This document shows positions 14,816-42,099 of a DNA stretch of 64,000 nt, in pieces. The position numbers and the translations under genes were made by a program. Each line of letters starts with the position of its first letter. Position 1 is the stretch's first letter. Source of the DNA: Chlorops oryzae. Taxonomy: Eukaryota > Arthropoda > Insecta > Diptera > Chloropidae. The DNA lies in NCBI GenBank assembly GCA_020466095.1, contig CM035807.1:63892650-63956649 (forward strand). The letters run 5' to 3'. The notes below the pieces were generated by a model. That model worked only from the letters and a program-made list of their open reading frames with translations, ran no database searches and was not told the DNA's origin.

Positions 14816-15045
14816 TATATGCATTTATAAATTTAAAGCATACTTTATGGAGTACGAATTTTGTTCAACCCACGTAAAGTTAAGATTCAAATAGATTTTA
14901 AACTTCAATACGAACTTTTAAGGAAGGTAGAAAAGCCGTTTGAAGTTCAACTTCACTAGACTTATTCGCAAAATGTTGGTAAGAAAAGTTTTTCCCCCAT
15001 AAAGTATGCTTTAAATTTATGAATGCATATATATCCGAGCCCTGA

Positions 15046-15330: not shown

Positions 15331-15339
15331 GTGCGGTTT

Positions 15340-15645: not shown

Positions 15646-15647
15646 CT

Positions 15648-16301
15648 TCATACGAAATCCCTTAATGCATGAGTGGATTTTGCATCTGTTTTGAACAGCA
15701 TAAGTTTAAGGTTACAATGAACATTCCGCGTTAGAATGTCTATTAAAACTCTTTCGCCTAATGGTTCTTTCATTCTGAGATTCATAGAAATGATACTACA
15801 AAAAAAATCGTCAACGGACTCTTCCAAAAGTTGCTTTCGGGTGGATATTTTCATGAGAATCTCGTTATCTGTTTCCAGACTTCTAAACTCTTTTGTAATC
15901 ATCTCAACTCTCATTTCTCGCTGAGACGCGTTAACTATGTCCTGTATATGAGCGAGTAGATAGTTATTCCCTTCGGTAGTGGAGGTATTTTGACTCTGAG
16001 CCATTTAGTTAATTTCGGTGTTTCTAATTAGACTTTCCAATGTCCTTGATTCGGTAAGCGGTACTTGTGTGATACTAGGTGAAATAAGAATGAAATTATC
16101 AATATCAGGAAACCCGTGAGGTTCGCCGAATCCTCGAAAATGATCGTCACTAGACGCGTTAGGTATACCTTCTTCAGAAAAGGTTGTTATAAGAGGGGGT
16201 GAACGAATTACTAATGGCCTAACTGTGGGTGGAGCTTCAAAATCATTCTGAGGCACAGGTGGGAGGGAGTTCGAATGAAGGCTTTTGTCTCGCGTCTGCA
16301 T
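15648..16301 (-). pseudogene. Gypsy Gag N-terminal region, copy 1, one in-frame stop
   Basis: A 98-codon frame (start MQTRDKSLHSNSLPP at 16301) and a 118-codon frame (start MAQSQNTSTTEG at 16004) are in the same phase and separated by a single TAA whose next codon is ATG. The second part (ETDNEILMKISTRKQLLEESVDDFF) looks like the capsid-type Gag helices of mdg3-like elements. Another stop follows RDFV, before the knuckles. Copy 2 (19772-20425) is identical, so the stops predate the duplication. Confidence 0.7.
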
Positions 16302-16373
16302 GTTCTGTCGCGGACCAATAAAAGAACAGACAGTACAAAGGGGGGGCCGAACGACCTAGTGATAGGCGTAATA

Positions 16374-16982
16374 TTAGGTGTAGTAAAAAGAAATCCATTA
16401 TTTTTGCATTAAATTGAGGGCTTTATTTAAGATAGTTAGAATGACCCGATTTAGGTCAAATATGCGCCGTTTTGTTCGATAACTTGTTGCCATTTTAAAG
16501 GTAATTTCATTATGCCTCTCTCATAGAAGCCCTCGTTCCTATTAGCAAAAAATTGAGACAGTCGAATTTCAGAAGCCTCTCTTGAAGCGAATGTTTCACC
16601 AGCAAAATTGTTCGCCATGGACAGGAACAGATGGTAATCACTTGGTGCCAGGTCCGGACTATAAGGTGGATGCAGAAGAACCTCCCAACCAAACTCCCGG
16701 AGCTTCTGGCGAGTCACTATCGATGTGTGTGGCCTGGCGTTGTCCTGATGGAACACAATTCCTCTCCTATTGGCCAAAGCTGGCCGCTTATGGGCGATTG
16801 CTTCCTTCAGACGGTCCAATTGTTGACAGTAGAGTTCCGAGTTAAGAGTTTTGCCGTATGGGAGCAGCTCATAGTAGATAATTCCCTGCCAATCCCACCA
16901 AACACACAGCAAAACCTTCCTGGCCGTCAATCCTGGCTTGGCCACCGTTTCCGCCGGTTCACCGTGTTTCGACCACGACCGT
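16374..16982 (-). pseudogene. Mariner, truncated by the duplication junction
   Basis: It contains the left inverted end (TTAGGTGTAGTAAAAAG) and the C-terminal ~175 codons of transposase, identical to the full copy at 20498-21785, and stops at the tandem junction. The second and third catalytic Asp (FHQDNARPH, PPYSPDLAPSDYH) remain but the first and the DNA-binding half are gone. Confidence 0.9.
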
Positions 16983-17282
16983 TTCTTATGCTTCGACAAG
17001 GGATACGGCCCTAAAAAATCGCAATATAGCCTTTGAAAGGGGCGTGTGGTTGGGAAGGCTTCCCCATTGGTGGTTGTGCAACCTGGTTCGATGGCTTAAT
17101 AGTTTTGCAATCGTCGCATTGGCCTACAAGGGATTTCGCATCGTGTGCCATAGAAGGCCAGAAATATTTCTGCCTGACTCTGTCTAGGGTTTAAAATATC
17201 CTCCATGACAACTGGAAAGTTGGGAAGCTAAAAGGGCTTTCTCTGCAAGTTTGTTTCGAAACCATAGCATCCAGAGACTGCT

Positions 17283-17837
17283 TTAGTCGCTCTCTATGCC
17301 CGGCCTTAAACACACCCGCTTAAAAACGTGCTGGTCAGAAACACGCAGGTCGGGCAATTGGTCGGAATTATAATGATTATTGTTCTTAGATCTGCATACT
17401 TGTACGTCGTTAAATTCTGCAGAATTTAGATCAACTTCTTGGTAATTTTCAGCAACATGAAATGTATCTACATCAAACCGACACAGGGTATCAGGGACTA
17501 CGTTGAGTGAGCCCTTGCGGTGCTCCATTCGGAAATCAAAATCCTGTTACTTTAAACTCCATCTGGCAAGGCGTCCCGACAAATCCTTTTGGCTCATAAG
17601 CCAAGTTAGACTGGAATGGTCTGTGACTATTCTGAGTGGTAACCATTCAATGTACGCCCTTAAACGCTTTGCGCATACGACTGCCGCCAAACATTCCATC
17701 TCGGTGACTGTGTATTTTCGCTGAGCACGATTAAGTTTTTGAGAAACGAAGGAGATCGGACGTTCCAACCCTTCATCGTTAATTTGGAACAACACCCCGC
17801 CTATGCCGATCCTAGAAGCGTCACATTGTTTAATGAA
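17283..17837 (-). pseudogene. Gypsy RNase H domain, copy 2
   Basis: Identical to 13160-13714, including the in-frame TAA. It lies inside duplication unit 2, downstream of the second MITE copy. Leftward it continues into the integrase zinc-finger segment (16990-17250), which is cut by the junction at 16983. Confidence 0.8.
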
Positions 17838-19169
17838 CAGGGCTCGGATATAAAGACTGTCCCAGAAATAACTGTCCTTTTGATTTTTTTTTATTGCAAA
17901 AAAACCAATCATGTTTTTTTAAAAATTCTTTGAGTTTATTATTAAGTGAACATTACAAAATAAATAAAAATTTTAATTACACTGAAAAAAATACACTTAA
18001 AAATAATTATAAACTTTTTTATTAAGGTCCTCAATTAGGTTTTTTACCGACCTTTCGTTCACCTTAGTGTATGCCCGACACCATTTGTGTCGAAATATTT
18101 CGATGTTCTTCGCAAACGCCGGTGCAGACTCTCTGATGTAAATTTCGGTGTTGATTGTGCGATCCGTCACAAATTCCTTACTTCGAAGGCTACATTTGCA
18201 AATGGCCTGCCACACCATGTATTTCTTTGGAAATTTGGTATGTTTTTCGGTGGTAAATTTAGAGGATGCTCCACCCCTTCTAACCGCAGTATAATATCGG
18301 TGTCCAGGTAACTGCTTGAAATCCGTTTTGCAATACGTTTCATCGTCCATGATCACGCAATCAAATTTGGGCAGGTAATCGCGATACAGTTTTCGAGCCC
18401 TCCTCTTGTCTTCGGCGTCCTTTTCTTCTGACCTATCAGGTACTTTTTGTGCTTTATAGCTCCTTAGGTTGTAAAATTTTTTAATCCGTTGAACACTTGA
18501 CTTCGATGTTCCCGCTTTTGGTGCCATATCACGAACCGAAGTGCCTGTATTCTGAGTAAATAGCCGCTTAACGTTCTGGGCCACCGCTTGGTTCGCTGGG
18601 CCACTTTTTCTCTTTGATCCTGGTGTTTTTGATAAAGGGGTAAGCTGTCTGTATCGTTTTATGATCCTACCGACAGTTTTTTTTGCACACGCCAATTTCC
18701 TTAGCGATCTTTTTTTTACGTGGTGTTTGGATTTTCCAGGTGTTTGTAAATAATTGCTTTCCGCTTTTCTTCTTGTTGAGACAACATCTTTTTAGTAGCT
18801 CTTTTATTTTACGAATGAGTATTTTTTTTAAATCTGAAATATTAATACTTTATTTAGGTACCAAATATCCTGCTATATAGTTAACACTTTTTGATAAATA
18901 GCCTAAAAACAAAAGGACAGTTATTTCTGGGACAGTCCTTATATGCATTTATAAATTTAAAGCATACTTTATGGAGTACGAATTTTGTTCAACCCACGTA
19001 AAGTTAAGATTCAAATAGATTTTAAACTTCAATACGAACTTTTAAGGAAGGTAGAAAAGCCGTTTGAAGTTCAACTTCACTAGACTTATTCGCAAAATGT
19101 TGGTAAGAAAAGTTTTTCCCCCATAAAGTATGCTTTAAATTTATGAATGCATATATATCCGAGCCCTGA
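17838..19169. mobile_element. hAT-type MITE, copy 2, split by Tc1-like element
   Basis: Same arms, same Tc1 insertion and same flanking 8-bp duplication as 13715-15045. It is a copy by segmental duplication, not an independent insertion, because all junctions agree. Confidence 0.75.
17853..18939 (-). mobile_element. Tc1-like DNA transposon, copy 2
   Basis: Same as 13730-14815 apart from one extra T near 18675. It holds the transposase remnant 17997-18695, whose first codons now read from a shifted frame upstream of KKTVGRIIKRY. The second and third catalytic acids are absent as in copy 1. Confidence 0.85.
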
Positions 19170-20425
19170 TAATGAACTACCTGTTATAATCCGGCTGCGC
19201 CAGTACGGGAGCGTTCAAGAGGGCGATCTTTAACTCTTCGAAGCTTGTTCATAAAAATTTACAATTTCCTTTACGTAGGCCATCCGTTAAGAGACCTGCA
19301 AGATTAGCGAAATTTGATATAAGGGATCTATACCAGTTTCCCAAGCCGATGAATCGGCGGACTTGACGGAGGCTTTTTGGAATCGGGGAATCCCGTATGG
19401 CTACAACTTTGTCAGGATCTACGTTAACAGCCGTCGGTGTCCTTCTCGCTCCTGGTGCGGTTTCCCGGATGGTGATTTACTCATTTTGTGGTCACTATTC
19501 CGCGTTCGCCACACTTGTAACAAAAAACATGCCTGGTTTCTTCTGGGCAATAGATATAGGAATGTCCTACTGATAAACAATTCCAGCATTTTATTTTGGT
19601 ATAATCAGGGATGGAACGTTTTGAAAGCTGAATAGCCTCGACTTGTGGGTCTTTATCTACATCTGAGTTGTCCTCTTCTGGTGTAGTCGCGTTAGTCTCG
19701 CGAACAAGCGGCTTTGTCGACCTACTTTGAGGCAGGAAGCTTTTACTCTCCTTAAGGACCTTCTCAGCGCTTCATACGAAATCCCTTAATGCATGAGTGG
19801 ATTTTGCATCTGTTTTGAACAGCATAAGTTTAAGGTTACAATGAACATTCCGCGTTAGAATGTCTATTAAAACTCTTTCGCCTAATGGTTCTTTCATTCT
19901 GAGATTCATAGAAATGATACTACAAAAAAAATCGTCAACGGACTCTTCCAAAAGTTGCTTTCGGGTGGATATTTTCATGAGAATCTCGTTATCTGTTTCC
20001 AGACTTCTAAACTCTTTTGTAATCATCTCAACTCTCATTTCTCGCTGAGACGCGTTAACTATGTCCTGTATATGAGCGAGTAGATAGTTATTCCCTTCGG
20101 TAGTGGAGGTATTTTGACTCTGAGCCATTTAGTTAATTTCGGTGTTTCTAATTAGACTTTCCAATGTCCTTGATTCGGTAAGCGGTACTTGTGTGATACT
20201 AGGTGAAATAAGAATGAAATTATCAATATCAGGAAACCCGTGAGGTTCGCCGAATCCTCGAAAATGATCGTCACTAGACGCGTTAGGTATACCTTCTTCA
20301 GAAAAGGTTGTTATAAGAGGGGGTGAACGAATTACTAATGGCCTAACTGTGGGTGGAGCTTCAAAATCATTCTGAGGCACAGGTGGGAGGGAGTTCGAAT
20401 GAAGGCTTTTGTCTCGCGTCTGCAT
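19170..20425 (-). pseudogene. Gypsy gag, zinc knuckles and RT connection, copy 2
   Basis: Duplicate of 15046-16301: RT connection at 19170-19454, knuckles at 19464-19769, and Gag at 19772-20425 with the same in-frame TAA before ATG. No difference from copy 1 was seen. Confidence 0.75.
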
Positions 20426-20497
20426 GTTCTGTCGCGGACCAATAAAAGAACAGACAGTACAAAGGGGGGGCCGAACGACCTAGTGATAGGCGTAATA

Positions 20498-21785
20498 TTA
20501 GGTGTAGTAAAAAGAAATCCATTATTTTTGCATTAAATTGAGGGCTTTATTTAAGATAGTTAGAATGACCCGATTTAGGTCAAATATGCGCCGTTTTGTT
20601 CGATAACTTGTTGCCATTTTAAAGGTAATTTCATTATGCCTCTCTCATAGAAGCCCTCGTTCCTATTAGCAAAAAATTGAGACAGTCGAATTTCAGAAGC
20701 CTCTCTTGAAGCGAATGTTTCACCAGCAAAATTGTTCGCCATGGACAGGAACAGATGGTAATCACTTGGTGCCAGGTCCGGACTATAAGGTGGATGCAGA
20801 AGAACCTCCCAACCAAACTCCCGGAGCTTCTGGCGAGTCACTATCGATGTGTGTGGCCTGGCGTTGTCCTGATGGAACACAATTCCTCTCCTATTGGCCA
20901 AAGCTGGCCGCTTATGGGCGATTGCTTCCTTCAGACGGTCCAATTGTTGACAGTAGAGTTCCGAGTTAAGAGTTTTGCCGTATGGGAGCAGCTCATAGTA
21001 GATAATTCCCTGCCAATCCCACCAAACACACAGCAAAACCTTCCTGGCCGTCAATCCTGGCTTGGCCACCGTTTCCGCCGGTTCACCGTGTTTCGACCAC
21101 GACCGTTTTCGCTTGACGTTGTCGTAAGTGACCCACTTTTCATCACCAGTCACCAACCGCTTCAGAAATGGGTCGATTTTGTTGCGGTTCAGCAGCGATT
21201 CGCAGATGGAAATTCGGTCTATGAGGTTTTTTTGCGTTAACTCGTGTGGCACCCATACATCGAGCTTCTTTGTGTATCCAGCCTTATTCAAATGGTTCCA
21301 AACGGTTTTTTGTGCAATCTTTAGCTCTTTTGCAATCGAAACAGTGCTAACATGACGGTCGGACTCGATAATGTCCATGATTTTATGGACATTTTCGACA
21401 ATTGGCCTTCCAGTGCGTGGTGCATCCTTGACATCGAAGTTACCGGAACGGAATCGACGAAACCAAAATTGCGCATGATTGGCTGTTACAGTATCAGGTC
21501 CATAAACGCTATTCACATTTTCAGCCGCCTGGCTTGCGTTTTCTCCCTTATCGAAGAAAAACTGTAAAATGTAGCGAATTTTCTCTTTGCTGATGTCTAT
21601 CTTTGACAAGCTCTCAAACAAAACTGAATCAATCAATCAAAAAAGTGTCAAAAAAGCTTTTTTAGTAGGAACTGTCATCTTTCTAATGCTCCCTAGCGGA
21701 ACACGATCGGACTTATACAACGCGAGATGCATATAAATAACGCCATCTATTGGAAAAATAATGGATTTCTTTTTACTACACCTAA
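20498..21785 (-). mobile_element. Mariner element 1, 1288 bp, full length
   Basis: Perfect inverted ends of about 32 bases start TTAGGTGTAGTAAAAAG at both sides and are flanked by TA (20496-20497 and 21786-21787). It lies upstream of the gypsy gag on the same strand. The same family recurs at 57994-59281, with the same length and ends, which confirms the borders. Confidence 0.95.
20575..21636 (-). pseudogene. Mariner transposase, full-length frame lacking its ATG
   Basis: An uninterrupted frame of 353 codons encodes a D,D34D mariner transposase, which cuts and pastes the element at TA sites. It has two N-terminal helix-turn-helix motifs (ASQAAENVNSVYG; VSTVSIAKELKIAQKTVWNH), the WVPHEL linker, and catalytic Asp in VTGDEKW, FHQDNARPH and PPYSPDLAPSDYH. 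The native start is very likely the codon before DISKEKIRY. In the sister copy at 58180 this is ATG, but here it is ATA, so translation would need a non-ATG start 12 codons upstream or another codon. That single change is the only obvious defect. Confidence 0.85.
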
Positions 21786-26731: not shown

Positions 26732-26944
26732 TGTGGCAGATTCAGTTCAAATTATCTTTTTGATATTCATCTAAGAAGACCGATTTCTATATAAAAAATA
26801 ATTTTCTTTATTGTAAATTTGAATAAGAATTTTCAGGGATTGAAATATATTATTTCTTTAGTAGAATTGTTTCCAAGCTGAAGTTTTCCGAAATCCTTTC
26901 AATCGCGCCTTTTTACCAGAAACAACGTTTACCACAATACAAAC
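26732..26944 (+). repeat. Probable 3' LTR of the plus-strand gypsy remnant (cut by a BEL element)
   Basis: A purine-rich tract GATAGGGGGAGTAA is followed by TGTGGCAGATTC, the expected polypurine tract/LTR start. The BEL/Pao element inserted at 26945, so the LTR may be interrupted; no matching continuation was identified after 34719. Confidence 0.45.
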
Positions 26945-27403
26945 TGTCCGTTTTTCGCCGCTGTCGCTACGCAGCCAGATCCCACCAGCGGCGAAAAAAC
27001 GGGAAAAAGGAGGGCAGCACTCCTAGCACAGCTGCTCGCGCTTTTTCCCGCCGGGCTTGACTGGCAACACCGGTCAAGTTTAAAATTATTATAAAGTCGA
27101 TTCTCAACGTGACACCTGCGTGAAAACCGTTCGTTCGAAAAACAATCCGCCAAAACGAAAAGTAAAGTACGGGCCGCGTTCGCGTGAATAGTTTAAGAAT
27201 TCGGGCGTTATTTTCTGTTTTTTTGATAAATCATCAATCAACAACAATAGCGTCACTAGCATCGGAATTCCAGCATCAGCAGAAGCAGTTGAGAGAAACA
27301 ACGTCGACCGCGACCGCAGCAGAAACACCGGCAGTTTAAGGTACGTGATCTTTGTTTACTTCCTACCGATTTCCCTTTGCCCCATTCTTTACGGGCCCAA
27401 ACA
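26945..27403 (+). repeat. 5' LTR of BEL element 1 (459 bp)
   Basis: Starts TGTCCG and ends AACA. The first 58 bases form a strong stem: 26948-26963 (CCGTTTTTCGCCGCTG) pairs with 26986-27002 with one bulge. A second, shorter stem (TGACTGGCAACACCGGTCA) lies near 27060. AAG|GTACGT near 27340 is a good splice-donor sequence inside the LTR. The primer site should start right after, at TTGGCGATCCTG, which loosely resembles the complement of a tRNA-Arg 3' end. Confidence 0.9.
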
Positions 27404-28074
27404 TTGGCGATCCTGTGTCCAGGAGTCCTGGCTTCTGGGAGAAAAAATTCCATCCAGAGCCCATTCCAGTGCACGCGGTGTGAGCCTTCCAGTGCCCTTC
27501 AAAGTTGGCTTGGAAGGTTTTTTTTTTTTTCATTCGAACTAAAGTGCCTTCTCTCTCGTGGCAAGGGGAAAACCAAAAGGTGAGCGGCAGCGGGGTGACC
27601 AGTGCATATATTTGCGTTGCTGTGTGTCTTCAGTTGATAGGCCTAACGGCGTTTGCACGTGAGCAAAGAGAAGACAAAGCAAATAAAAAGACAAGCACGT
27701 TGGTCAGCTATATCGCAGCGCTGCTACCGTTTGTTTTTTCGGTCGCTGCTTGAATTTTTCGATTTGAATTCGCAGTTGGCGTGCGAAACAAAGCGGATTT
27801 CTTTCGTATGCGAAAATTATTAGTAAGTTGCACTGGCTAGCCTTTTGAGAAATAAAGAATTGACAATTAAAATTCGACTGCTTTTTATTTGCGTATTTGC
27901 TAAATTGATTGGTGTACTAGCTAACCAATTTAAATAAAGCCTGACTTATATTCAAACAATTTGAATTTCATTGCGGCAGTAAAATTTACGTGGAAGGTTG
28001 GTTGTGAAGGTTAGTATTTGGTTGTTCAAGCGTAACAGGTAAAATTCATACATAGAGCCAAGACAATCAGCGAC
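27404..28074 (+). promoter_or_regulatory. Leader of BEL element 1 with primer site and candidate splice donor
   Basis: 671 bp between LTR and gag without long coding frames. AAAAG|GTGAGC at 27576-27585 matches a strong 5' splice site. Together with the acceptor at 33337 it would join the leader to the extra 3' ORF, as retroviral env messages are made. That pairing is inferred from sequence alone. Confidence 0.45.
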
Positions 28075-29433
28075 ATGACTTCTACCGCGAAATTGAACCA
28101 CATTGTAGGGTTATTTGAAAAATTGTGCTCATGGAATGACAGACATGAGGGGTTGAATTCTTCGCAATTTAGATTGGATGCGCATCTGGAGGACCTCGAG
28201 CTCCAGTGGAAGGATCTGTGCAAGGTTTTTGACGAAGTATGCCTAGGAAGCGGAACGGATTCAGCCGCCTACGAAAATTTATCAGCCATTATGGAGGAAT
28301 GCCGCGCTTTGTACTACGAGGCGAAAGGTTATCTTAATGAGCAATTAGAGATATTTTCGAGTCCGGCTCCGTTGTGCAGTACACACATGCCACGCGTTCG
28401 AGAAACCGAAATCGATACCAGCTTCAGAGTTCCATTGTGTGACGTAAAGGTGTTTGCCGGCGGTTATAAAGTGGCCAGCATTCCGCGATCGCTTCAAGAT
28501 CTTGTATATCCACAACTCCAGCATTGGTCCGGTCCAGCGACTCATCCACCTTCACGATAAGACGTCAGGTGCGGCCAATCAAATTGTTAGAGGATTTCCT
28601 CCAAGTGAAGGGAGGTTCGATGACGCATGGGAAGCTCTCAAGGCGCGGTATGAGAATCGACGATTGCTCATTGATAACCAACTTAAGCTTCTCTTCGACT
28701 CACCAGACATTAAAGAAGAGACAAGTGGAGCGATTTTACAACTCCTGTCCACTGTCAACGATAGCCTCGCCGTGATGAAAAGTCAAGGAGTCGTGAATTT
28801 GGTGGATCCCATTTTGGTGCATTTTTGCGCACGGCGTCTACCTGCTCAAGCCGTGCTGGACTGGGAGCATTCGCTTTCATCTCAACGGGAACCTCCTACG
28901 TGGCAACAAATGAAGGAATTCATGCAAAGACGCTTCGAGATCGCTGAACGCATTGCCAATTTCACCGCCATCAACCACTACGCCCCCTCATTGACTCCTT
29001 CTTCTACCACCTTCTTCACCTTCTTCACCATCACGCACTGCGACAGTGCCCACAATTTTTGGAAATGACGGTCGACGATCGTCATAGATTTATTACGCAA
29101 AATAAGAGATGTTATAATTGTTTAACTGCCTCCCATCGCTCGGCAAAATGTACCAGCCCCTATCGATGTGCGAAGTGTAAGAAGCGGCATCACACGCTAC
29201 TTCATGGACATGCTCCCGCGGTCTCACCGAATGATGCTTCTCCTCCGTCCTCCCAGACCCCCGGCCCGTCGACGACGAGCTCCGCTGTTGCATCATCGGC
29301 GACGTCACCGTCCCCAATTGGAGCTTCGATTTCCTCCCATCAAACCAACGCACATGTGGCTGACAGCCACACTCAGGTCCTATTGCCTACTGCCCTCGCG
29401 CACATCCTCCTCAGGGCGAGCGGTTCACTGTGA
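28075..29433 (+). pseudogene. BEL element 1 Gag (capsid plus zinc knuckles), frameshifted
   Basis: The ATG at 28075 follows a stop-rich leader. Residues 1-120 are helical. The DUF1759-type core (FRVPLCDVKVFAGGY, then KWPAFRDRFKILY) is split by a one-base shift near 28465. The capsid-like region continues (FDDAWEALKARYENRRLLI) to about 29050, where a second shift occurs. Then MTVDDRHRFI leads into zinc knuckles CYNCLTASHRSAKC and CAKCKKRHHTLLH, which bind element RNA. A Ser/Pro/Ala-rich linker follows. BEL elements usually have gag and pol in one frame, so these breaks inactivate the copy if real. Confidence 0.85.
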
Positions 29434-30110
29434 GAGTGCTCCTGGATCAGGGCTCTCAACGAACATTTATAACGGAGCGCATGCAACTGCAGCTCAAACT
29501 GCCCACCCACTCCAAAATTTGCACCGTGTCCGGCATGGGCGGGCAGTCGTCACAAACGGCGAAAAGGGAATGCGTGCTCACTCTGGCATCCCCGCGCTCC
29601 CAATTCCAAGAGGAGGTGGCGGCCGTCGTACTACCAAAATTAACAAATTGGCTGCCATCGTCACGAGCACGATATGTGGACTCCACAGAATTAGCTTCTC
29701 TGGAGTTGGCCGATCCACACTTCATGGATCCAGGGCGCATCGACATGGTCGTTGGATCGGATCTTCTCCCGAAAATCGCGCTGTCGGGACTTCGGGTCAA
29801 CATCGGAGGCAGTCTGTTGGCTCAAAACTCCGTATTCGGATGGTACCTTAGTGGCCCTATCTCTGGCGAGTCGACGCAATCGTTCGCCACATGCACTACC
29901 ATCACGGAGCCGACGGAGTCGCTTCATGATCTTCTCAAGAGCTTTTGGGAACAAGAAGAGATACCTCAGAAACTTCCGGCTTCTCCCGAGGACGAATACT
30001 GTGACAAATTGTACTCCCGAACCACCGTTCGCAACACCGATGGTAGATATGTCGTTCGATTGCCATTTAAAGAACAATTTTCTAAACTTTCTTTGCGCTT
30101 GGCGCGTCTC
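29430..30110 (+). pseudogene. BEL element 1 protease region (DUF1758) and RT start
   Basis: VLLDQGSQRTFITE carries the aspartic protease Asp in the D-Q/S-G-S form used by BEL/Pao proteases, which mature the polyprotein. The following 150 residues (ADPHFMDPGRIDMVVGSDLL, NSVFGWYLSG) match the conserved region between protease and RT. The RT N-terminus (RNTDGRYVVRLPFKEQFSKL) is in this frame until about 30100, where the frame changes. Confidence 0.8.
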
Positions 30111-32758
30111 GATCATTGGCGCTCAGGCAATATACGTGTTTGGAAAGGAGACTCCAACGACAACCCGCGATGCATGAAACTTACAACGCCGTACTACGAG
30201 AATATATCACAAGTGGTCATATGGAACCGGCCACGCCCCCTTTTGAAATCTCCCACAACGGAACCTGCTCTTCGTTTCATCTGCCTCATCACGCGGTTGT
30301 TAAACCAGAGAGTACCTCTACCAAGGTGAGAGTGGTTTTCAACGCATCCCAGAAAACCACCGCCAAGTCATCTCTGAATGATGTGCTGCACGTGGGCCCA
30401 GTTCTACAAGCCGACTTAGTTATCTTGTTGCTCAATTGGCGCACCTATCGATTCGTTTTCAACGGCGACATTGAAAAAATGTACCGCCAAATTTTGGTCC
30501 ACAAAGCGGATCGCGCATTTCAACGAATTTTGTTCCGAGATGATCCTACCGCACCGGTCAAGGATTTCGAGCTGAAGACGGTCACCTTCGGAGTGAATTG
30601 CGCACCATATTTGGCCATCCGAACCCTCTACCAGTTAGCCGACGACACTGGCGATGCGGCTCCCCGAGCTGCGTTCATTTTAAAAAATGAAAATAATGTC
30701 GATGACGTATTGTCGGGCGGCCATACGCTGGCGGACGCGCTCGAGGCCCAGGCGCAACTCTTCACCACGCTTCAGTCGGCAGGATTTCCGCTTCGGAAAA
30801 TTACCGCAAATCACAGGACATTGCTGGAAGGGATTGAGCCCACTCATTTATTAAACGCAGAATTTCTCAAGTTCGACGCCCATAGCAACGCAAAGATGCT
30901 GGGAATCCGGTGGAACGCCGTGACTGACTGCTTCTCGTATCGGTTGACGACGAGGACATCCACTTCTGAGACCAAGCGGCAGATCCTATCGGACATCGCC
31001 AAGTTATTCGATCCGGCCGGATGGCTGACGCCGATCGTGATACGAGCCAAAGTGCTTATGCAGCAGCTATGGCTGGAAGGCACTGCGTGGGATGAACGAG
31101 TCACCAGTGATGCACTAGCCAAATGGAATGCCTTCTTAGAAGATCTGCCTTTCATCGAACAGATTCAGATTCCACGGTGGCTTCAGTATGAGCCTGCCGC
31201 GAGCATTCAGCTGCACGGATTCTATGACGCGTCAGAGCGAGCGTACTGCGCTGCCATATATCTTCGAGTTGAAACACTCGATAACGCCAACACTCTTTTA
31301 TTGACCGCTAAGTCGAAGGTGGCGCCTTTACAGACGGTGAGCCTGCCACGCCTCGAATTGTGTGCCGCGGTGTTGTTGTCCAAACTGGTAAAATCCATCA
31401 ACGAACAGCTGCGAGTCCACGAGCATGACACCTTTCTATGGACTGATGCCTCAATTGTGCTGGCCTGGCTCAAGCGACCCCCTAATGCCTGGAAGACGTA
31501 CGTGGCCAACCGAGTGTCGCAGATTATCACCAACACTGGCCATCTCCCCTGGCACCATGTGAGATCGCAGGACAATCCGGCTGATTTGGGTACTAGAGGA
31601 TCCTCGGCGCAAGATCTGCAAGCGAATCACCTGTGGTGGCACGGACCGTCGTGGCTAAAGGAACCTGCTAGGGATTGGCCCCAGCCGAAGACTCCATCCG
31701 CTCCCATTCTCGAAGAACGAAAAGTGCAATCGTTCACCGCCATTATCGCACACGAAGACCTCCTCGAACGCTTCTCGTGTTTCGATCGCGCATTGCGAGT
31801 CCTAGGGTTCGCATGGCGATTCATTCAGCGAACACGAAAGGCAGCTGGCCCACCGGAATTCTCCCATGCGCTCTCTCAACGAGAACTAACAGCGGTGAAA
31901 ATTCGTCTTATCGTTGCGGAGCAGAAACGATATTATCCGGAAGAATATGAAGAGCTAAGCAATCGACGGCCCGTCCATAAGAAGAGTCAACTGCTTAGTC
32001 TTAACCCCGTGCTCGACAGCGATGGGCTGCTGCGGGTTAATGGACGGCTGGTCCATGCCGACCTCACACCCGACGAAAAACACCCGATCATCTTGCCAGC
32101 CCCCTCTACATTTTGTCGCCTTTTTTTGGATTTCATTCATCGATCTATGTTGCATGCGGGAAACCAACTTATGTTTTGGACGGTGCGACAGAACTTTTAC
32201 GTCGCGAGACTTAAGCGTAAAATCAAAAGCTGCATCAGCCGCTGCCACGCATGCACTATTCATGCCCACCGGATGAGAACACAACTGATGGCAGCTCTGC
32301 CTGCTGAACGCTCAACGCTTTCACTACCGTTTACTTCTACCGGCGTCGACTTTGCGGGTCCCTTCGACATCAAAACCTCCACCTTACGCACCGCTCCGTT
32401 TTTGAAAGGATACGTATGTGTATTCGTTTGTTTCGCCACCAAGGCCATCCACCTGGAGTTGTGTTCGGAGCTCTCAACAGCGTCCTTTCGGGCCGCATTC
32501 GATAGATTCGTCGGACGCCGCGGCCTGCCTAAATGTGTATTTTCGGACAACGGGCGCAACTTTGTCGGCGCAAAGAATGCACTTGAGGCTGAATTCGAAG
32601 AATTTATATCGAACGTTTCCACGAAAATTCGGCAACACTATACGGTTCAAGGTTTCGAATGGCATCTGATTCCACCTCATGCTCCGCATATGGGCGGGCT
32701 CTGGGAGGCGGCGGTGAAGAGTTTCCAGACTCATTTCGTGGACAGCTGGCGCCATTAA
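30110..32758 (+). pseudogene. BEL element 1 RT, RNase H and integrase, long frame
   Basis: An 880-codon frame covers RT fingers (STKVRVVFNASQKTT), the palm start (GDIEKMYRQI), and the active site, which reads NVDD instead of the usual YVDD near 30694. The thumb follows (LFDPAGWLTPIVIRAKVLMQ). RNase H has LHGFYDASERAYCAA, LPRLELCAAV and FLWTDASIVLAWL as acidic motifs, and HVRSQDNPADLGTRG. The integrase zinc finger (HAGNQLMFWTVRQNF, CHAC) and core (GVDFAGPF, FSDNGRNFVG, GGLWEAAVKSF) hold D, D and E. The frame is lost after THFVDSWRH, by one base. Confidence 0.85.
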
Positions 32759-33248
32759 ATTCTCATTTGAAGAATTTACAACACTTCTCGCACGCATCGA
32801 AGGAGTTCTCAACTCACGCCCCTTGACACCCATGTCTGAGGATCCGGAAGATCTGCTCGCATTGACACCCGGTCACTTCCTGAGAGGCGCTCCGCTGACA
32901 GCGTGGCCGGAGGATTCACAATCAGACCTACCCCTTACGACTCGCTGGGAAAAGATAAAAATCCTACACCATCGATTCGCACAACGATGGAAAATTGAAT
33001 ATCTATTGAGTCTGCACAAGCGCGAGAAGTGGAAGACTTCGCAGCCAAACCTCAAGGTCGGCGACATTGTGGTAATCATGGATGAACAGACACCCCCCTT
33101 TGAATGGAGGAAGGGCCGATAACCGCGTTGCATCCCGGAAATGATCATCTTGTACGTGTAGTCGATGTCAAAACTCAGTTCGGCATCATGACCCGACCTA
33201 TAACTAAGTTATGCGTTTTACCGACCGACCTAACAGAAACATTATGAC
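32759..33248 (+). pseudogene. BEL element 1 integrase C-terminus
   Basis: It continues integrase in two further frames: SFEEFTTLLARIEGVLNSRP near 32760, then LTPGHFLRGAPL and the DUF5641-type domain (KWKTSQPNLKVGDIVVIMDE). A one-base loss near 33120 moves the closing segment (HLVRVVDVKTQFGIMTRPI) to a third frame, ending at the TGA near 33248. This domain is the usual end of BEL/Pao pol. Confidence 0.8.
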
Positions 33249-33330: not shown

Positions 33331-33346
33331 GTTTCAGCCCATCATG
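33331..33346 (+). promoter_or_regulatory. Candidate 3' splice site just before the extra ORF
   Basis: A pyrimidine-rich stretch (CCCTCTCATCGTTTCAG) ends at 33337, seven bases before an ATG at 33344. The placement is that of a subgenomic-message acceptor for a retroviral third gene. No transcript evidence is available. Confidence 0.4.
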
Positions 33347-34220
33347 TGTGAAGAAGATCTGCGAGAGCGATGCCCGCTCTGCCCGCAAAACCATCGGCTG
33401 TCCCGCTGCCGCCGCTTTCGACGCCTTTCGGTGGAGGGGAGAAAGAGCTGCATCCGGCTCCACAAGCGCTGCTGGTCGTGTCTAAAAGCGGGCCATCGCG
33501 TATTGTCCGTCTCGGCAGGTGTGCAAGGTGTGTAGCGGGCTGCATAACTCGCTCATCCATGAGGAACCTAGACCAGAGTCGCCGGATGAACGGGAGGATG
33601 GTCCATGGCGCCCTAAAGTTAAACCGACACAACTGGCGTCGGGGAGTCGAGCCACCGCACGGCGACGTCGTTCGCGTCAGCGCCTCCCCATACGACGCAG
33701 CCAATCCTTGTCCGGACCCGGTCGCCTATCCGTCACCTCCGCGCCGTCACTCTGCAGCGCGTCGACGCTCCGCTGCCAATCTACGCTCGCCGTCGCCGCC
33801 ATCCACACCGCCAAGAAGAGTGACATTCTGCACCCGCTCCACCCGGATGCCACCAGGGACGCCACCGCGCCACTGCTCACCCGTGGTCCTCGCCGCTCGC
33901 CATCACTACCACGTCGCCGTTCGCCGTCGCCAGCACGTCGCCACTCTTCGTCATCATCACGACGCTGCCGTCGGGTCCCACCACATCCGCAGTCATCGCC
34001 GCCGCGCTTCCGAACCACTCGCGCTCCCCCTCGCAGTCCAGACCCACCACTGGATGCTCGAGAGACGTTTGAGGAGTTTGCACGAAGGCATCGGATCCCG
34101 GAAGCTCCCACCGAACGCTCCCAGCCCTTGTCATGGGAAGTGAAACGGCAAGTCCACGAGTGGTGCGTGGAGGCCCGAGCAGCGTTCTTAGCGGCGTGCC
34201 GGGCCCAACGTCACAACTAA
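33344..34220 (+). pseudogene. Extra 3' ORF of BEL element 1: zinc-knuckle and RS-rich protein
   Basis: Between pol and the 3' LTR, where some BEL elements carry env, lies a frame with no membrane segment. It starts MCEEDLRERC with a zinc array: CPLCPQNHRLSRC, then CWSCLKAGHRV, then CKVCSGLHNSLIH after a one-base frame change near 33510. The array has the spacing of a BEL Gag knuckle region and differs from this element's own Gag knuckles. After it come about 150 residues rich in Arg, Ser and Pro (RRSPSLPRRRSPSPARR), then a helical end (FEEFARRHRIPEAP, VKRQVHEWCVEARAAFL). It could bind RNA or be a second nucleocapsid-like protein; function is not known to me. Confidence 0.65.
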
Positions 34221-34256: not shown

Positions 34257-34714
34257 TGTCCGTTTTTCGCCGCTGTCGCTACGCAGCCAGATCCCACCAG
34301 CGGCGAAAAAACGGGAAAAAGGAGGGCAGCACTCCTAGCACAGCTGCTCGCGCTTTTTCCCGCCGGGCTTGACTGGCAACACCGGTCAAGTTTAAAATTA
34401 TTATAAAGTCGATTCTCAACGTGACACCTGCGTGAAAACCGTTCGTTCGAAAAACAATCCGCCAAAACGAAAATTAAAGTACGGGCCGCGTTCGCGTGAA
34501 TAGTTTAAGAATTCGGGCGTTATTTTCTTTTTTTTTGATAAATCATCAATCAACAACAATAGCGTCACTAGCATCGGAATTCCAGCATCAGCAGAAGCAG
34601 CGAGAGAAACAACGTCGACCGCGACCGCAGCAGAAACACCGGCAGTTTAAGGTACGTGATCTTTGTTTACTTCCTACCGATTTCCCTTTGCCCCATTCTT
34701 TACGGGCCCAAACA
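34257..34714 (+). repeat. 3' LTR of BEL element 1 (458 bp)
   Basis: Preceded by the purine tract GCAAGGCGGGCAGTA, the same tract as in BEL element 2 before 42514. It differs from the 5' LTR by two G-to-T changes and a TT/C change near the GAAGCAG motif. It ends ACA, followed by CAAAC. Confidence 0.95.
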
Positions 34715-34776
34715 CAAACAAAACAATAACTGTGATAGATTACATGCGAAAATATTTTTGATATAAATGGCGAAAT

Positions 34777-35110: not shown

Positions 35111-35651
35111 ATTCAAAAGAATCTTTTAAATTCGCGCGAAACGTTCAAAAATGCGTTTAAGAAAATTCTGGTTTTTTTTGTAAAACCATACGGGCGAAAG
35201 TTTTATAACGATGGCTCAATTCGGCACAGGAACTAGGTTTCCTTAATCGAGAAATTATCGCTTTCAAAAAGTGGCAAAGCCGCGCCCGGTCCGGAAGAAC
35301 TTAAAGCGCTCAAGAGCTGGCTGAATTTCATTAATCAAAAAATTCTGGCTAAAAAGAATGAGGGAAGTGACTATTTATGGAAAATTATTTACAAATGAAC
35401 GACTTGGTAATCCGGTACACAAAATAATAAGGTCTAACAAACACTTTTAATGGATCGGTGGTATTGAATTTCACATCCGGGGGCGGTTTAAAACAAGGGC
35501 AACAACCTCCAACCAAACACGAATGAAAATAACTCTAAGCAGAAAGCGGTTTTAAAAACCAAAAGGCATTAGAAGGCGTAAATGAAACAAAGTCTGCTCA
35601 AGCTCAATGGAGTCCAAAACGTACACATGTTGAAATTGGCACCAAAAATAT

Positions 35652-36822
35652 TTGCGGATTCACTCCAAAACAATACGTCCTTGGGAATCCACAACGGGCC
35701 ACATTCTCGAATATACACCAGAATTATTCTATGATATGGAGTCGAAGGTGGCATCAGTCCTAGTGGAGCTTCGACAACACATTCCAAAAGAGGATCAGGC
35801 AGCTAGACCACAAGAATCATCGAATCATCATGACAACGAGATTCTTCTGCCCAGAATTTCTGTGCCGACATTTAATGGCAACTATTTGCAGTGGATGGCC
35901 TTCAAGGATCTATATACTGAGATCGTTCACACAGCAAATATCAGCGATGCAAGAAAAATGCACTATTTAACCCAAGCTCTCGCGGGGGAACCTAAAAAAA
36001 CTAATACAGCACCTTCCAGCGATCGGAGGGAACTACACTGCGGCCTGGTCCATTTTAATAAACAGGTACGACAACCAAAGGTTGCTTGTTACAACACTGC
36101 TGAACAAGTTACTAACGCAGCCAACCACTAAGTCCGAGTCATCATCGTCCCTCAAGACATTGCACGACGTAACACATGAATGTATGCATGGCCTGGCAGC
36201 GCAACGCCTTCCGGTTCACTATTGGGATACAATTGTGGCACATATTGTTCTCAAAAAACTGGACCAGGCCACCCAAACGTCATTCGAGCAAGGCCTGGAC
36301 GACAACCGGCGATTGGTTACTCTTGAAGAAGTGTTAAAGTTTCTTGAACGCAGGTTCCAATCACTAGAAGTCCGAGGAAAAGGCGACTCGTCTTCCAAAA
36401 CAGTTGCTGCATATGTGGAGAATGACAGCAAATGTAAGGTCTGCAACAAAGACACTCATCCGATCTACCAATGTGGCAAAATTACAAGCTCAACGTGCAA
36501 AGAAAGGTGGCAGTTGGTGAATCAGCATAAGCTCTGCGCGAACTGTCTTAAACCAGGACACTCATCCAATAAATGTAAACGACAACACTGCACCAAGTGT
36601 ACCAAAAAACACAACACGTTACTTCACGCTGAAAACTCTTATCAGACAGCAAAAAGGTCAACGGAGCAGGATGGGGCTAAGCAAACTGACACAGCTCAAA
36701 ACAATAAGAACGCAAGCAAGCACCTGACGTCACCACGGCCAGCGATACAACAAAGGTTAGCCTGCTCGCCAACAGCAACGAAATCAACGAACACTACGTA
36801 TTACTTGGAACAGCCTTAATAG
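35652..36822 (+). pseudogene. BEL element 2 Gag, frameshifted
   Basis: The Gag core is clear (LPRISVPTFNGNYLQWMAFK, then DARKMHYLTQALAGEP, near 35850-35990). A frame change in an A run near 35995 follows. The second frame (36082-36819) holds the rest of Gag, ending with zinc knuckles CKVCNKDTHPIYQC, CANCLKPGHSSNKC and CTKCTKKHNTLLH, which bind RNA. The start codon is uncertain because the region before 35652 is degraded. Confidence 0.8.
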
Positions 36823-36824
36823 AT

Positions 36825-37310
36825 TTGGTAACAGCTGATGGACAACGAATTGAATGCCGAGCTCTATTAGACTCCTGCTCCCAGGTAAACCTAATTACGG
36901 AACGGCTATTAAAGAAACTAAGAGGAACTACCAGAGCCGACCCAACGTGTGTAGAGGGAGTCGGAGTAACAGAAAACACGGTTCTTCATCGCACCACAAT
37001 TCATCTGAGATCAAAATACAACAAGTTCAGTGCCACCGTAGATGCTCATGTACTTCCAAAAATCGTTCCAACCAACCGTCTCACAAGATACAAATTGACG
37101 ATTGGAACATTCCAAATGAGTTAAATCTGGCGGACCCCACTTTTTCTAGGCCAGGACGTATCGACTGCTTACTAGGAGCGGAACTTTATTTGGACCTTCT
37201 TACAAAAGGCAGGAAGAGGCTATCCGAGAATCTTCCAACACTCCAGAACACGGTTTTTGGATGGATAATTGCAGGCAGTATCACCAGTCCCCACTCCAAT
37301 ATAGCCACAT
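36825..37310 (+). pseudogene. BEL element 2 protease (DUF1758) region
   Basis: ALLDSCSQVNLITERLL is the protease active-site segment, with Asp-Ser-Cys in place of the common D-S-G. The frame changes near 37115. The conserved downstream part (LNLADPTFSRPGRIDCLLGAE and NTVFGWIIAGSI) follows in the second frame. Confidence 0.75.
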
Positions 37311-38404
37311 GTGGAGTGTGTACAACACAGGAGCTTGAGGATACTATTTCTAAATTCTGGCAGCTTGAAGACACACCGCACTCGAGCACGTCGCTTACAG
37401 AGGATGAACTACGCTGCGAATCTCACTTTGCACAACATACGACGAGGTCAAACGCGGAAATATGTAGTCAAGTTGCCTCTCAAGGAGCATCCATCAGTCT
37501 TGGGGAAGTCAAAAGCCATAGCATACAGCAGGTTCATGTCTTTGGAGAGGAGATTGACCCAAAATCCATCACTAAGAGCACAATACACGCACTTCATGAT
37601 GGAATACGAAAAATTGGGGCACATGACTGAAATCGACCCAAAGCAAGAACTTCTTACGCATTATTTCATCCCTCATCATTGTATTCTCCGACCAGAAAGT
37701 ACAACTACAAAATTAAGAGTAGTGTTTGATGCGTCTGCTAAGACGACAAATGGATTGTCACTCAACGACATCATGTACATCGGACCCACTGTCCAAAGCG
37801 AACTCTTTCCCTCCTGCTACGTTTTAGAATTCATAAATATGTTCTAAAAACAGATGTGGAAAAGATGTATCGTCAGATATGGGTCAATGAGGACGATCGG
37901 AAACTGCAGCTGATAATGTGGAGGAACAGCCCGACTGAAAATCTGAAGTACTATCAACTTAATACAGTGACATACGGAACACGGGCGGCTCCATATCTCG
38001 CAACACGCTGCTTGAATCAATTAGCCGATGAATATCAACACCAATTTCCTCTTGGGGCAGCATCACTTAAAGCAGATTTTTATGTAGATGACGGACTTTT
38101 GGGCGCAGACTCTTTGCGAGAAGCTCTGGAAATGCAGCAACAACTAATTGATGTTCTTCAAAGAGCTGGAATGCAACTCCGAAAATGGTGTGCAAACAGT
38201 CCAAAATTACTGCATGGGATTCCACAGGAGACCAAGAAATTGACCTTAATTTTTGACTCTCAAGAAACTCAAGCCACCAAAACCTTAGGTCTGACGTGGC
38301 TCCCCAAAACGGATGTTTTTTGCATAAAAACAAACCTCAAAAGAAGAACAACGACCACTAAAAGAAGCATGACCTCTGACTTGGCCCGCATTTTTGACCC
38401 ATAA
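37311..38404 (+). pseudogene. BEL element 2 reverse transcriptase
   Basis: RT begins with RKYVVKLPLKEHPSVLGKSK, then HYFIPHHCILRPEST and LRVVFDASAKTTNGLSLND. A frame change near 37850 precedes EKMYRQIWVNEDDRKLQ. The active site FYVDDGLLG near 38080 is intact, and the thumb (LARIFDP) is cut by a stop at 38402. RT copies the element RNA to DNA inside Gag particles. Confidence 0.8.
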
Positions 38405-39255
38405 GGATTGGTCGGTCGGTAGTGGTTACTGCAAAAATTTACATACAGCAATTATGGCAGCTTAAAATCGACTGGGACTCGGATCTTCCGTTGGAAATTC
38501 AACAACGATGGATGCGGTTGCAAGATGACCTGCCAGCACTGGACAATGTTAAAATTTCGCGACACGTGCTTAGTCAGCAAGGTCAGCTGAACATACAACT
38601 GCATGCTTTCGCTGATGCATCCGAGAAGGCATACGGTGCGGCAATCTACATCAGGTCTGTGCAAAAGGATAAAACGATCAAGCTGAACTTACTTTGTTCC
38701 AAGTCACGCGTGGCACCACTAAAGCAGCAAACGATTCCACGTTTTGAACTATGCGCCGCCCTGTTAGCAGCCGAGCTAATGACAAGAGTAAAAGGTGATT
38801 TGAACTACCAAAATAAGGCAAGTTACCTGTGGACAGATTCACAAATCGTGCTTTCATGGATAAACAATCATCCAGGCACGCTTCCAGTTTTTGTTGCACA
38901 CCGAATTATAAAAATTAATCAGTTGACGAGGCCAGAGCAATGGCGACACGTGCCATCCAAGCAAAACCCAGCAGATTTGCTCTCAAGAGGAATAAAACCG
39001 AGAGAATTGGCCACGTGCCATATGTGGTTCTTTGGACCATTATTCTTATATGAGCCTGAGCCTAGGTGGCCACCTCCCTTCAACAGGGAATTAGTCATTG
39101 AAAATAGTCCAGCAACGGTAGCCATAACGTCAAAACAGGCAGACTTGGCAGAGGACCCACTGGTGTATTCAATCCCATCCAGAAATTCATTTCTCTATCT
39201 CCAGAGAGTGACTGGATACGTACTGCGATTTTCAAAAAATTGCAAAAAAATCTAA
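38405..39255 (+). pseudogene. BEL element 2 RNase H and tether region
   Basis: A frame of 277 codons has LHAFADASEKAYGAAIY, FELCAALLAAEL and YLWTDSQIVLSWI as the acidic motifs, and HVPSKQNPADLLSRG. The frame changes again at about 39255 before the integrase zinc-finger region. Confidence 0.8.
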
Positions 39256-40738
39256 ACATGCTCGACCAAAAAATAAGCAACTGTCACCGGCAGAGCTAGA
39301 TGCAGCATTGAAATTAATAGTACGCCAAATTCAAACGTCCGACTTTCAAGATCTACTGAAGATCTTACGAAAAGAAGGAAAAGTACCAAACTCGAACTCC
39401 CTTAATTCTCTGGCTCCATTCTTAGATGAAGAAGGAATAATCAGAGTAGGCGGCAGATTACAAGCATCATCTCAACAATATGACACGAAGCATCAAATGA
39501 TCCTACCTGGAGATGATCCCATCACGAAATTGCTTTTAGAAAAGATGCACAAGGAGAATTATCATTGTGGACCCTCGGCACTGCTCGCGTTCGTCAAACA
39601 ACGATTTTTGGCCACTTAAAGGCAGAAGCTTGGCAAGATCAGTCGTTCAACATTGTGTAAGGTGTACGCGATCAAGGCCCGTTTTATACAAACAAGTTAT
39701 GGGGAACTTACCACCATCACGAGTCGAACCAGCGCGCCCATTTCTACACACCGGCGTAGACTATTGTGGACCTTTCCGAGTACATTTTAAAACTCGAGGA
39801 AAGGCGCCACAAAAGGCGTACATTGCCGTCTTCTGCTGCTTCTCGACTAAGGCCGTACACTTGGAACTAGTAACGGAGTTAACGACCGACGCATTTATCG
39901 GAGCTCTCAAACGATTTATTGCACGCAGGGGTTACTGCAAAACAATATTTTGCGACAATGCAACGAACTTTGTGGGAGCCAAAAACCAACTCGAGGAGCT
40001 CACCAGCAGCATCTATTCATCAAAGGCATCCGATTCCATCATACGAACCTGTAGTGAAAAAGGAATTAGCTTCCAGTTCATCCCACCAAGAGCTCCACAC
40101 TTTGGCGGTCTATGGGAAGCGGCGGTGAAGTCAACAAAAAAACTGCTGGCTCCAAAACTGCATGAAGCGACAATGACATTCGAGGAATTAAACACGGTTG
40201 TGACTGAAGTCGAAGCAATGCTTAATTCACGGCCACTAGTTCCAATGTCCTCCGATCCGAATGATCTAAGCGCACTTACTCCGGACATTTCCTCATTGGA
40301 GAGCCATTGAGGGCAAACGTTGATGCCGACACCGAACCAATGAAAACAAAGATGTCAACACGATGGGAAGAGGTCTCCAAAATTAAACACAAATTCTGGG
40401 AGCGCTGGTCAAAGGAGTATTTAGCCGAGCTGCAATTGCGACATAAATGGAAGGGCCCGACAACCATTATCAAGCCAGACACATTGGTAATTATCAAGGA
40501 GGACAATGTCCCCGTATTACAATGGCCACTGGGTCGAATAATAAATGTGTATAAGGGAGACGATGGAGCCGTACGAGTGTGCGATATTCGGACTCACAAA
40601 GGAATAATCCAGCGACCCATACACAGACTGGCGCCACTTTTTCCGGAAGACAGTAGCGAAGAAAACGTCGGAGAAGAAAGCCGAACAAAGGAAGCTCCTG
40701 AAACGTCAAAGGTCTCCTTACCGATTAGCATCCCCTAA
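39256..40738 (+). pseudogene. BEL element 2 integrase
   Basis: Zinc-binding region: GRLQASSQQYDTKHQMIL, HCGPSALLAF and CVRC across a frame change near 39610. Core: HTGVDYCGPF, FCDNATNFVGAK and HFGGLWEAAVKS give D, D and E. Another frame change near 40300 leads to the C-terminal domain (KHKFWERWSKEYLAELQLRH, DTLVIIKEDNVP, HKGIIQRPIHRLAPLFP). It inserts the cDNA into host DNA. Confidence 0.8.
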
Positions 40739-40779
40739 GTCGCCTTAAAAATGTTCACTCATTCAACAACGAAGTCATT

Positions 40780-42099
40780 CCAAACAAGGTTAGACGCATT
40801 GAACCAACCCTTCTTTTCACCCTGATAGCGCTAATCCTTTGCCTGTAATCCTGTGCAATCCAGTCAATATCACGACGTTTAGCCAGAAGCCAGGAGTATA
40901 CTTCGAGCAGCTTGGATCCGCAAGGCCTATCACCTCTAATTGGAACATGATAGTGTATTACGACCTGCAGCCATATAGAGACCAAATAGACATGCTAATT
41001 GATGGGATCAACACATTGCAAATATTGTTTGTCCAACCCAAAAACGACACAACATGCACTTTCTTCATTGAATATTTCGAAAAAATTGAAAAGCAGCTAC
41101 AGACAGAACTCAATCTGCTTTCTGTCAACAGGGCAAAAAGAGGTGCTGTAGATTTGGTCGGAAATATCGCCAATTCACTTTTTGGGGTCCTCGACTCTAA
41201 CTATGCCACTAAGATGTCGGAGACCATCACCGGCTTAAGAACAAATGACGAACATCTTGAGCACCTGCTCAAAAATCAAACTTCGTTGATAAATTCAACG
41301 ATAAACATTTTCAAAGACGAACAACTGAGAATTAAAAGCAAGTTTGATGAAATCGATCGGCAAATCGACGTTTCTAGCTGTCAGCCCCAAACGACGAGTT
41401 CGTTCCGTTGTCCAATGAGCAAGTACAGTCATGCTTAATCTCAATAACAAGCAGTGGTTGTGCCCCAATATGCAAGCCACTTACTTTAAGGCATCGACCG
41501 TCTGTCAGTGTGAACTAGACTTACTCAACAACGAGAGCGACCCCAGATGCGAACTACACTGGTCGAATGATACGATTCTTTGGCATCAACTTAAACAGCC
41601 GAATAAATGGATCTACGCGACAACGAGCAACGTTCGCTTTACGGCTGTGTGTAAATACGAAAATCAGCAATTTACACTTCAACATAGCGGCATGATCCAC
41701 TTCCGATCCGACTGCACGATCAGGCACGATCTGATAACTATACAGAGCCTCAAAAGAATTGTGACTTCATTAAACGCAAAAAATAATAAATTTGGAGAAT
41801 TAGTAGGACGAGCGCATCAATTTGATATCAACTCAACCCAAGTAACGGCGTTCACAACACAGTTTAAAGATTTAGAAATTATTCAACAACAACTAGCACT
41901 GATCAACGCATCAAGCTTTCCTAACACAACGAACGCCACACACAACCACAGCCTAATCATCAGTTACGTAGCTGTGAGCCTAACAGTTCTTCTAGCGATC
42001 ATAATAATTTCACTTGGCCGCAGACTGAAGCAAATAAAGGGATTACCACGTCAAGTGCCTATTCCAGCACCACGATCAGTTGAAGACACCGCATGCTAA
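40780..42099 (+). pseudogene. Envelope-like gene of BEL element 2, two frames
   Basis: Two frames (about 40839-41438 and 41431-42099) encode an Env-type glycoprotein. The first has several Cys and N-glycosylation-like sites, and a furin-type RAKR site about residue 102, followed by a Gly/Ala-rich hydrophobic stretch as in a fusion peptide, then a long helical region. A hydrophobic signal-like segment precedes it near 40805-40835 in a different frame. The second frame is Cys-rich and ends with one membrane-spanning segment (residues about 175-197) and a short basic tail. The layout resembles insect errantivirus/baculovirus-F-type envelopes; the gene is broken by at least two frame changes. Confidence 0.75.

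Follow-up and report, generated by a model that had tools for sequence, protein, structure and literature searches.

A probable Gag-derived, nucleocapsid-like accessory gene between the integrase and the 3' LTR of BEL/Pao elements in Chlorops oryzae

The window analysed here, a stretch of 64,000 nucleotides of Chlorops oryzae DNA, harbours a BEL/Pao retroelement in which an additional coding region, referred to as ORF2, occupies the space between the integrase and the 3' LTR. The features of this element, in window coordinates, are the following.

26940-26944 and 34715-34719: target duplication CAAAC (5 bp), on both flanks of the element
26945..27403, + strand: 5' LTR (TGT..ACA), from the LTR pair comparison
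27338..27346, + strand: splice-donor-like AAG/GTACGT in the LTR, would-be exon end 27340, conserved across copies
28036..29433, + strand: Gag of the element, frame-broken in the window copy (DUF1759 match, knuckles, homology)
28448-29065, + strand: DUF1759 within this Gag (Pfam)
around 29044-29205, + strand: knuckles of Gag's own triple Cys-His box
29364..33247, + strand: protease, reverse transcriptase, RNase H-type/Peptidase_A17 region, integrase and DUF5641, in several frames
33245-33247, + strand: pol stop TGA, end of the integrase/DUF5641 part
33332..33337, + strand: splice-acceptor-like TTTCAG, would-be exon start 33338, conserved across copies
33344..34220, + strand: ORF2, with triple Cys-His box, GPWRP motif, basic R/S/P-rich region and predicted C-terminal helix, split over two frames in the window copy
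34257..34714, + strand: 3' LTR, from the LTR pair comparison

The host of ORF2 is recognised as a BEL/Pao element by Pfam matches to DUF1759, Peptidase_A17, Integrase_H2C2 and DUF5641, obtained from the broken frames of the window copy, and by the TG..CA ends of its LTRs along with the short duplication of its target. An earlier sequence-only reading of this DNA had called the element complete; the domains, the LTR pair and the CAAAC repeats on both sides bear this out, with the qualification that gag-pol of the window copy contains several frame breaks. The two LTRs differ in only 4 of 459 aligned columns, which along with the intact CAAAC flanks suggests a fairly recent insertion. The same reading had also noticed that the element has Gag knuckles of its own besides those of ORF2, and the own Gag with a complete box is indeed present in an open frame in two other copies (L041 and L043). 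The usual description of BEL elements is that of one gag-pol ORF, to which an env is sometimes added, a statement made for Drosophila in the accessible part of PMC5408687. The neighbouring BEL element downstream (35634-42099) carries Baculo_F-type envelope frames (40803-41435 and 41419-42096) at a position equivalent to that of ORF2. Elsewhere in the window, mariner-type transposase frames and knuckle fragments repeat every ~4.12 kb from 13874 to 21636 (13874/17997, 15423/19547 and 16451/20575), a pattern that looks like a tandem duplication. An Rfam search over the window yielded nothing informative.

The ATG of ORF2 at 33344 lies 96 nt after the pol stop, and its stop codon at 34218-34220 lies 36 nt ahead of the 3' LTR. 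Small indels divide the window copy, such that the frame of this ATG holds knuckle 1 and most of knuckle 2, and the remainder of knuckle 2, all of knuckle 3 and the C-terminus are read in the frame 33486-34220; a frameshift also affects part of the Arg-rich stretch. The region had earlier been read as one frame with three Gag-type knuckles, an Arg/Ser/Pro-rich part, a helical end and no membrane segment, and this content is retained, whereas the single frame is not found in the window copy. The knuckles, CX2CX3HX4C, CX2CX4HX4C and CX2CX3HX4H, conform to the triple Cys-His box of Pao/BEL Gag (CX2CX3-4HX4C, CX2CX2-4HX4-5C, CX2-4CX3HX4H), a hallmark of this Gag according to the accessible part of PMC554778; the spacing is the same, and ORF2 can be aligned to the element's own Gag box gap-free. 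As compared to the Gag described there, ORF2 is devoid of the capsid part (no Pfam match to DUF1759 ahead of the knuckles), is a separate 3' gene, and continues into the GPWRP motif, the basic region and the helix.

The basic region of the open copy L003 (147 aa) consists of 27% R, 20% P and 18% S, with 42 K+R residues against a single D or E. The description of ORF2 as RS-rich is therefore correct for composition, but RS/SR dipeptides are not in excess of shuffled sequences (12 vs 14.1), and a classical RS domain is rejected on this account; SP/TP dipeptides do exceed the shuffles (12 vs 7.1, p 0.019). Host SR proteins, which act as NXF1 export adaptors according to the accessible part of PMC4782049, likewise combine an RNA-binding part with an Arg/Ser-rich part, whereas ORF2 has no RRM match, no RS dipeptides above composition and no homology to them. 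A single-sequence prediction for the ORF2 end (window 33984-34217) suggests a long helix at residues 51-76, with block means of 96-98 pLDDT.

The box of ORF2 matches the Gag of its own element (36% over 64 aa, E 2e-12; 26 of 65 residues identical, without a gap) as well as that of the next BEL element (33% over 69 aa), so that the earlier suggestion of a captured piece of another Gag holds as regards the Gag origin of the box. A tree of 58 boxes groups all seven boxes from ORF2 in one clade (98/94) and unites the Gag boxes of family A (that of the window copy) with those of family B in another (99/93). A recent copy of the own Gag box is ruled out by the 26/65 identity and these separate clades. 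In view of the single supported clade, ORF2 probably goes back to one gain that preceded the split of the families. A joint clade of the ORF2 boxes with the A and B Gag boxes is not rejected (p-AU 0.27), which makes an old duplication of the element's own Gag possible; the tree rests on 65 columns and resolves little more, and ORF2 is unplaced in a smaller box tree. Between families A and B, 36 of 65 residues are identical in the Gag boxes and 31 to 33 in the ORF2 boxes. A piece of the element's own Gag found 67 proteins in the protein database at E <=0.001, the organism-named ones being from insects and a springtail. ORF2 itself gave no informative relatives in that database, where low-complexity words may have crowded out true ones, no Pfam match above cut-off and no PDB profile match, one of these searches returning just two knuckle matches, both weak (E 0.05 and 0.07). 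Viral contigs offered nothing informative with the window ORF2 frame, the RT-integrase piece or the ORF2 alignment.

The host genome (G000, 442 Mb) contains at least 45 matches to the family, the best 40 of 75 candidates having been scored, and 40 loci including that of the window were taken. ORF2 is open from the ATG to the same stop in 12 of these 40 copies and broken in 28, the window copy among them. The open frames measure 295 aa (n=9), 311 aa (n=2) or 319 aa (n=1), the last having lost two knuckle ligands. This length variation includes in-frame 8-residue units, e.g. RRRSPSPA; in L013, L015 and L021 the Arg-rich region is enlarged by in-frame 24-bp units of this type, with the box length fixed. 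In ORF2, indel lengths tallied copy by copy are multiples of three for 22 of 30 insertions, as compared to 14 of 40 deletions. L002, L003 and L004 (G000:C3, 74.64-74.66 Mb) have identical ORF2 sequences and are spread over both strands within ~20 kb, a cluster that probably reflects local duplication; a family B ORF2 (L081) sits 1.3 kb from one of them.

A genome search with one open ORF2 protein returned at least 149 matches (best 133 of 3885 candidates scored), and among the matches listed 45 are divergent (36-43% identity), 20 of them with a stop-free frame of 282 codons. Forty of the 45 were fetched, 20 with long and 20 with short flanks, and all belong to sister families of ORF2: 36 loci to family B, two to C and two to D. 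Together with the absence of Pfam and PDB matches, this leaves no trace of the host-gene fragment that the sequence-only reading had considered, and the open copies in family A and the sister loci speak against its other concern, an ORF2 present only as decayed sequence. Family B has an open ORF2 in 22 of 36 loci, a count biased upward as 16 of the 20 short-flank loci were chosen for a stop-free frame; L091, pooled with family B but a member of family D, is outside the alignment and the open count. In a family-by-family alignment, ORF2 of B is 39% identical to that of A and 46-47% to those of C and D. Across five ORF2 proteins 41 columns are invariant, mainly in the box and the following GPW[RQ]P motif, and the middle and end of the sister proteins are not confidently alignable to family A.

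Linkage of ORF2 to the integrase is close. The integrase tail ends directly ahead of the ORF in 18 of 20 long-flank sister loci, the exceptions being the two family C copies. A search with the integrase tail gave at least 42 matches (best 40 of 233 candidates scored), and among the matches listed ORF2 follows within 700 nt in 41 of 42 and lies 5.6 kb away in the remaining one; a copy devoid of ORF2, for which the earlier reading had advised looking, is thus absent among these 42. Between families A and B, identity of the integrase tail amounts to 75-81% over 300 aa in four of five comparable cases and to 80% over 196 in the fifth. The two family C loci, L055 and L064 (1277-1690), show a frame like the N-terminal Gag of a sister element (cf. 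L068) directly before ORF2, with no integrase tail found, as if they were an internally deleted, non-autonomous derivative retaining ORF2. L060 (1102-2202) joins a family D-like integrase tail (VDVKTQFGIITRPITKLCLLPVEL) to an ORF2 of family B and is possibly a recombinant.

Retroelement copies decay neutrally after insertion. The ratio among private variants is hence expected to be neutral, and variants shared by many copies are expected to represent the active lineage. With L003 as reference and 39 other copies, private variants are 295 changing to 108 silent, as compared to 45 to 44 for those in at least four copies (p 7e-5, a guide rather than an exact level as copies share descent, which applies to all p values of this test). 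The wrong frames give no shift (+2, p 0.52) or a shift in the opposite direction (+1, p 0.018). With L006 as reference, 35 rows (near-identical L002, L004, L030 and L039 dropped) and stops counted as changes, the ratios are 345:122 for private and 41:36 for widely shared variants (p 0.0004), with p 0.019 for the box and p 0.003 for the C-terminus; the Arg-rich region alone displays no significant constraint (p 0.2), and the wrong frames give p 0.099 and 0.89. The integrase tail, taken as positive control, reaches p 9e-10 (wrong frames p 0.31 and, in the opposite direction, 0.003), and LTR pseudo-frames range from p 0.26 to 1. The check for purifying selection advised in the sequence-only reading thus turned out positive: shared variants are less often amino-acid-changing than private ones, in the ORF2 frame only.

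In family A, seven pairwise comparisons over the whole ORF give dN/dS values of 0.37-1.20 on few changes, which counts against the explanation preferred below. The box region shows dN/dS of 0.13-0.33 within family B, and its silent sites are near saturation between families. In family B the variant test shifts the same way as in family A, but reaches significance neither over the whole ORF (p 0.16) nor in the box (p 0.18); the box attains p 0.015 only when all variants in at least two copies are pooled. Homology to Gag, frame-specific constraint and presence in sister families place ORF2 beyond chance, and by these comparisons it is a separate gene under constraint and not junk.

A pyrimidine-rich stretch ending in TTTCAG directly precedes the ORF2 ATG. 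The acceptor CAG is present in 33 of the 36 copies of the family and, across four families, in 18 of 21 loci, the distance from CAG to ATG varying between loci; L003, one of the three non-CAG loci in the latter set, still has the AG. The acceptor G is lost in 2 of 36 copies and in one sister locus, an observation that counts against the explanation preferred below. Among the sister loci, 17 of 20 were counted for the acceptor, the donor and box dN/dS, as L050, L053 and L060 failed the start pattern. LTR conservation was computed from 33 of 40 loci with the anchor, leaving 30 rows after removal of near-identical L002, L004, L030 and L039. Of the 30 rows, 24 carry the donor window AAGGTACGTG unchanged; its mean conservation is 0.92, as compared to 0.76 and 0.75 for the adjoining 30-nt stretches. 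However, 89 of the 450 windows in the LTR equal or exceed it in conservation, with the maximum close to the start of the LTR, which again weighs against the preferred explanation. The first ~60 nt of the LTR (26945-27005 and 34257-34317) are its most conserved part across copies, with 10-nt windows up to 0.987, exceeding the donor-like site. Beyond the ORF, AGGTACG[TG] occurs in 13 of 17 sister loci with different flanks. The window LTR has no ATG before the donor, which would make the ORF2 ATG the first one in a spliced message, and the last 190-282 nt before the donor are free of ATG in 26 of 30 copies; in the unspliced leader there is another donor-like site, as well as one ATG ahead of that of gag. 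The retention of donor- and acceptor-like sites while their flanks drift suggests that ORF2 is expressed from a spliced message.

These observations are best explained, with a probability of about 0.75, if ORF2 encodes a lineage-specific, Gag-derived, nucleocapsid-like accessory protein of BEL/Pao that binds the RNA of its element, in agreement with the second nucleocapsid-like or RNA-related accessory protein proposed earlier. The nucleocapsid box of Gag with its three zinc knuckles would have been duplicated or captured once, inserted between the integrase and the 3' LTR, and fused with a long basic stretch rich in R, S and P and with a helix at the C-terminus. A subgenomic mRNA would be spliced from the LTR leader to just ahead of the ORF2 ATG, and its product, probably nuclear, would bind the element's RNA through the knuckles and the basic region, with the helix serving self-association or a partner. 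Among the titles and abstract openings covered by the literature searches, no description of such an ORF was found.

An element with working splice sites in its RNA must still export the full-length RNA. This need, along with the precedent of CERV from Cer1 of C. elegans, makes an escort that takes unspliced genomic RNA from the nucleus to the cytoplasm the preferred yet unproven job within the accessory-protein reading, at a likelihood somewhat short of even. A second nucleocapsid for packaging or reverse transcription is nearly as likely, regulation of how strongly the element is expressed or how many copies it makes would be a minor prospect, and some other role accounts for the rest. CERV, according to the accessible part of PMC10309623, arises from a spliced mRNA, needs Cys-loop residues and a phosphorylated serine, and is a large protein of three structured domains resembling no known retroviral protein. 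ORF2 is similar in being an extra LTR-element protein with a Cys-rich, RNA-binding-like part, its splicing being presumed, and in a possible importance of Ser/Pro phosphorylation, in that its SP/TP excess fits phosphorylation control as in CERV and proves nothing; it differs in being short, built on a Gag box and known from sequence alone. Short accessory ORFs that are conserved also occur in other LTR elements of insects, namely Drosophila MDG1 with sORF1, which is subnuclear, and sORF2, a membrane protein (PMC11952523), but these lie upstream of gag in unspliced RNA, with no knuckles mentioned in the accessible part of that source.

The strongest rival holds that the product enters the particle and aids RNA packaging or reverse transcription rather than nuclear export. 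A complete Gag-type triple Cys-His box beside a strongly basic tail is what such a protein would possess, whereas a separate, probably spliced gene devoid of a capsid part suggests a job away from Gag, and this rival is considered rather unlikely. A Gag-derived factor lowering the element's own activity, by analogy with p22 of yeast Ty1, is distinctly less probable: the Gag derivation and the retention of ORF2 by copies under constraint would suit it, but p22 is a truncated Gag produced from within gag, and ORF2 is a separate gene with new domains. The Gag origin of the box and the 28 broken copies, the window's included, could be reconciled with a captured Gag fragment carried along without function, a reading that appears already largely refuted by the frame-specific constraint, the open frames of sister families at 39% identity and the low box dN/dS of family B, and is left with very little probability; junk is rejected likewise, the linkage to the integrase among the matches listed adding to the constraint and the sister families. 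An envelope or cell-entry gene would sit between integrase and 3' LTR, as in roo (PMC5408687, accessible part) and in the next BEL element, and insect errantivirus env is made from a spliced message (PMC12992720, accessible part), but ORF2, unlike the roo-type envelope, has neither a membrane segment (maximum 19-residue hydropathy 0.38, copy L003) nor a Baculo_F match, so that this reading is refuted as far as sequence goes and retains practically no probability.

With the Gag-derived accessory protein as the preferred reading, a constrained extra gene in four families of one genome indicates that nucleocapsid modules are able to evolve into accessory genes in their own right. A bolder proposition, put forward tentatively and with confidence clearly below even, is that this BEL/Pao lineage has turned a second nucleocapsid box into a spliced regulatory gene acting in the nucleus on unspliced genomic RNA. 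If true, these elements would count as 'complex' in the way that lentiviruses do, having a regulator that arose from their own Gag independently of Rev, Rex and CERV. The high copy number makes this reading of ORF2 testable with host RNA, and the ORF2 families would offer a natural system for how splicing LTR elements still export their full-length RNA from the nucleus.
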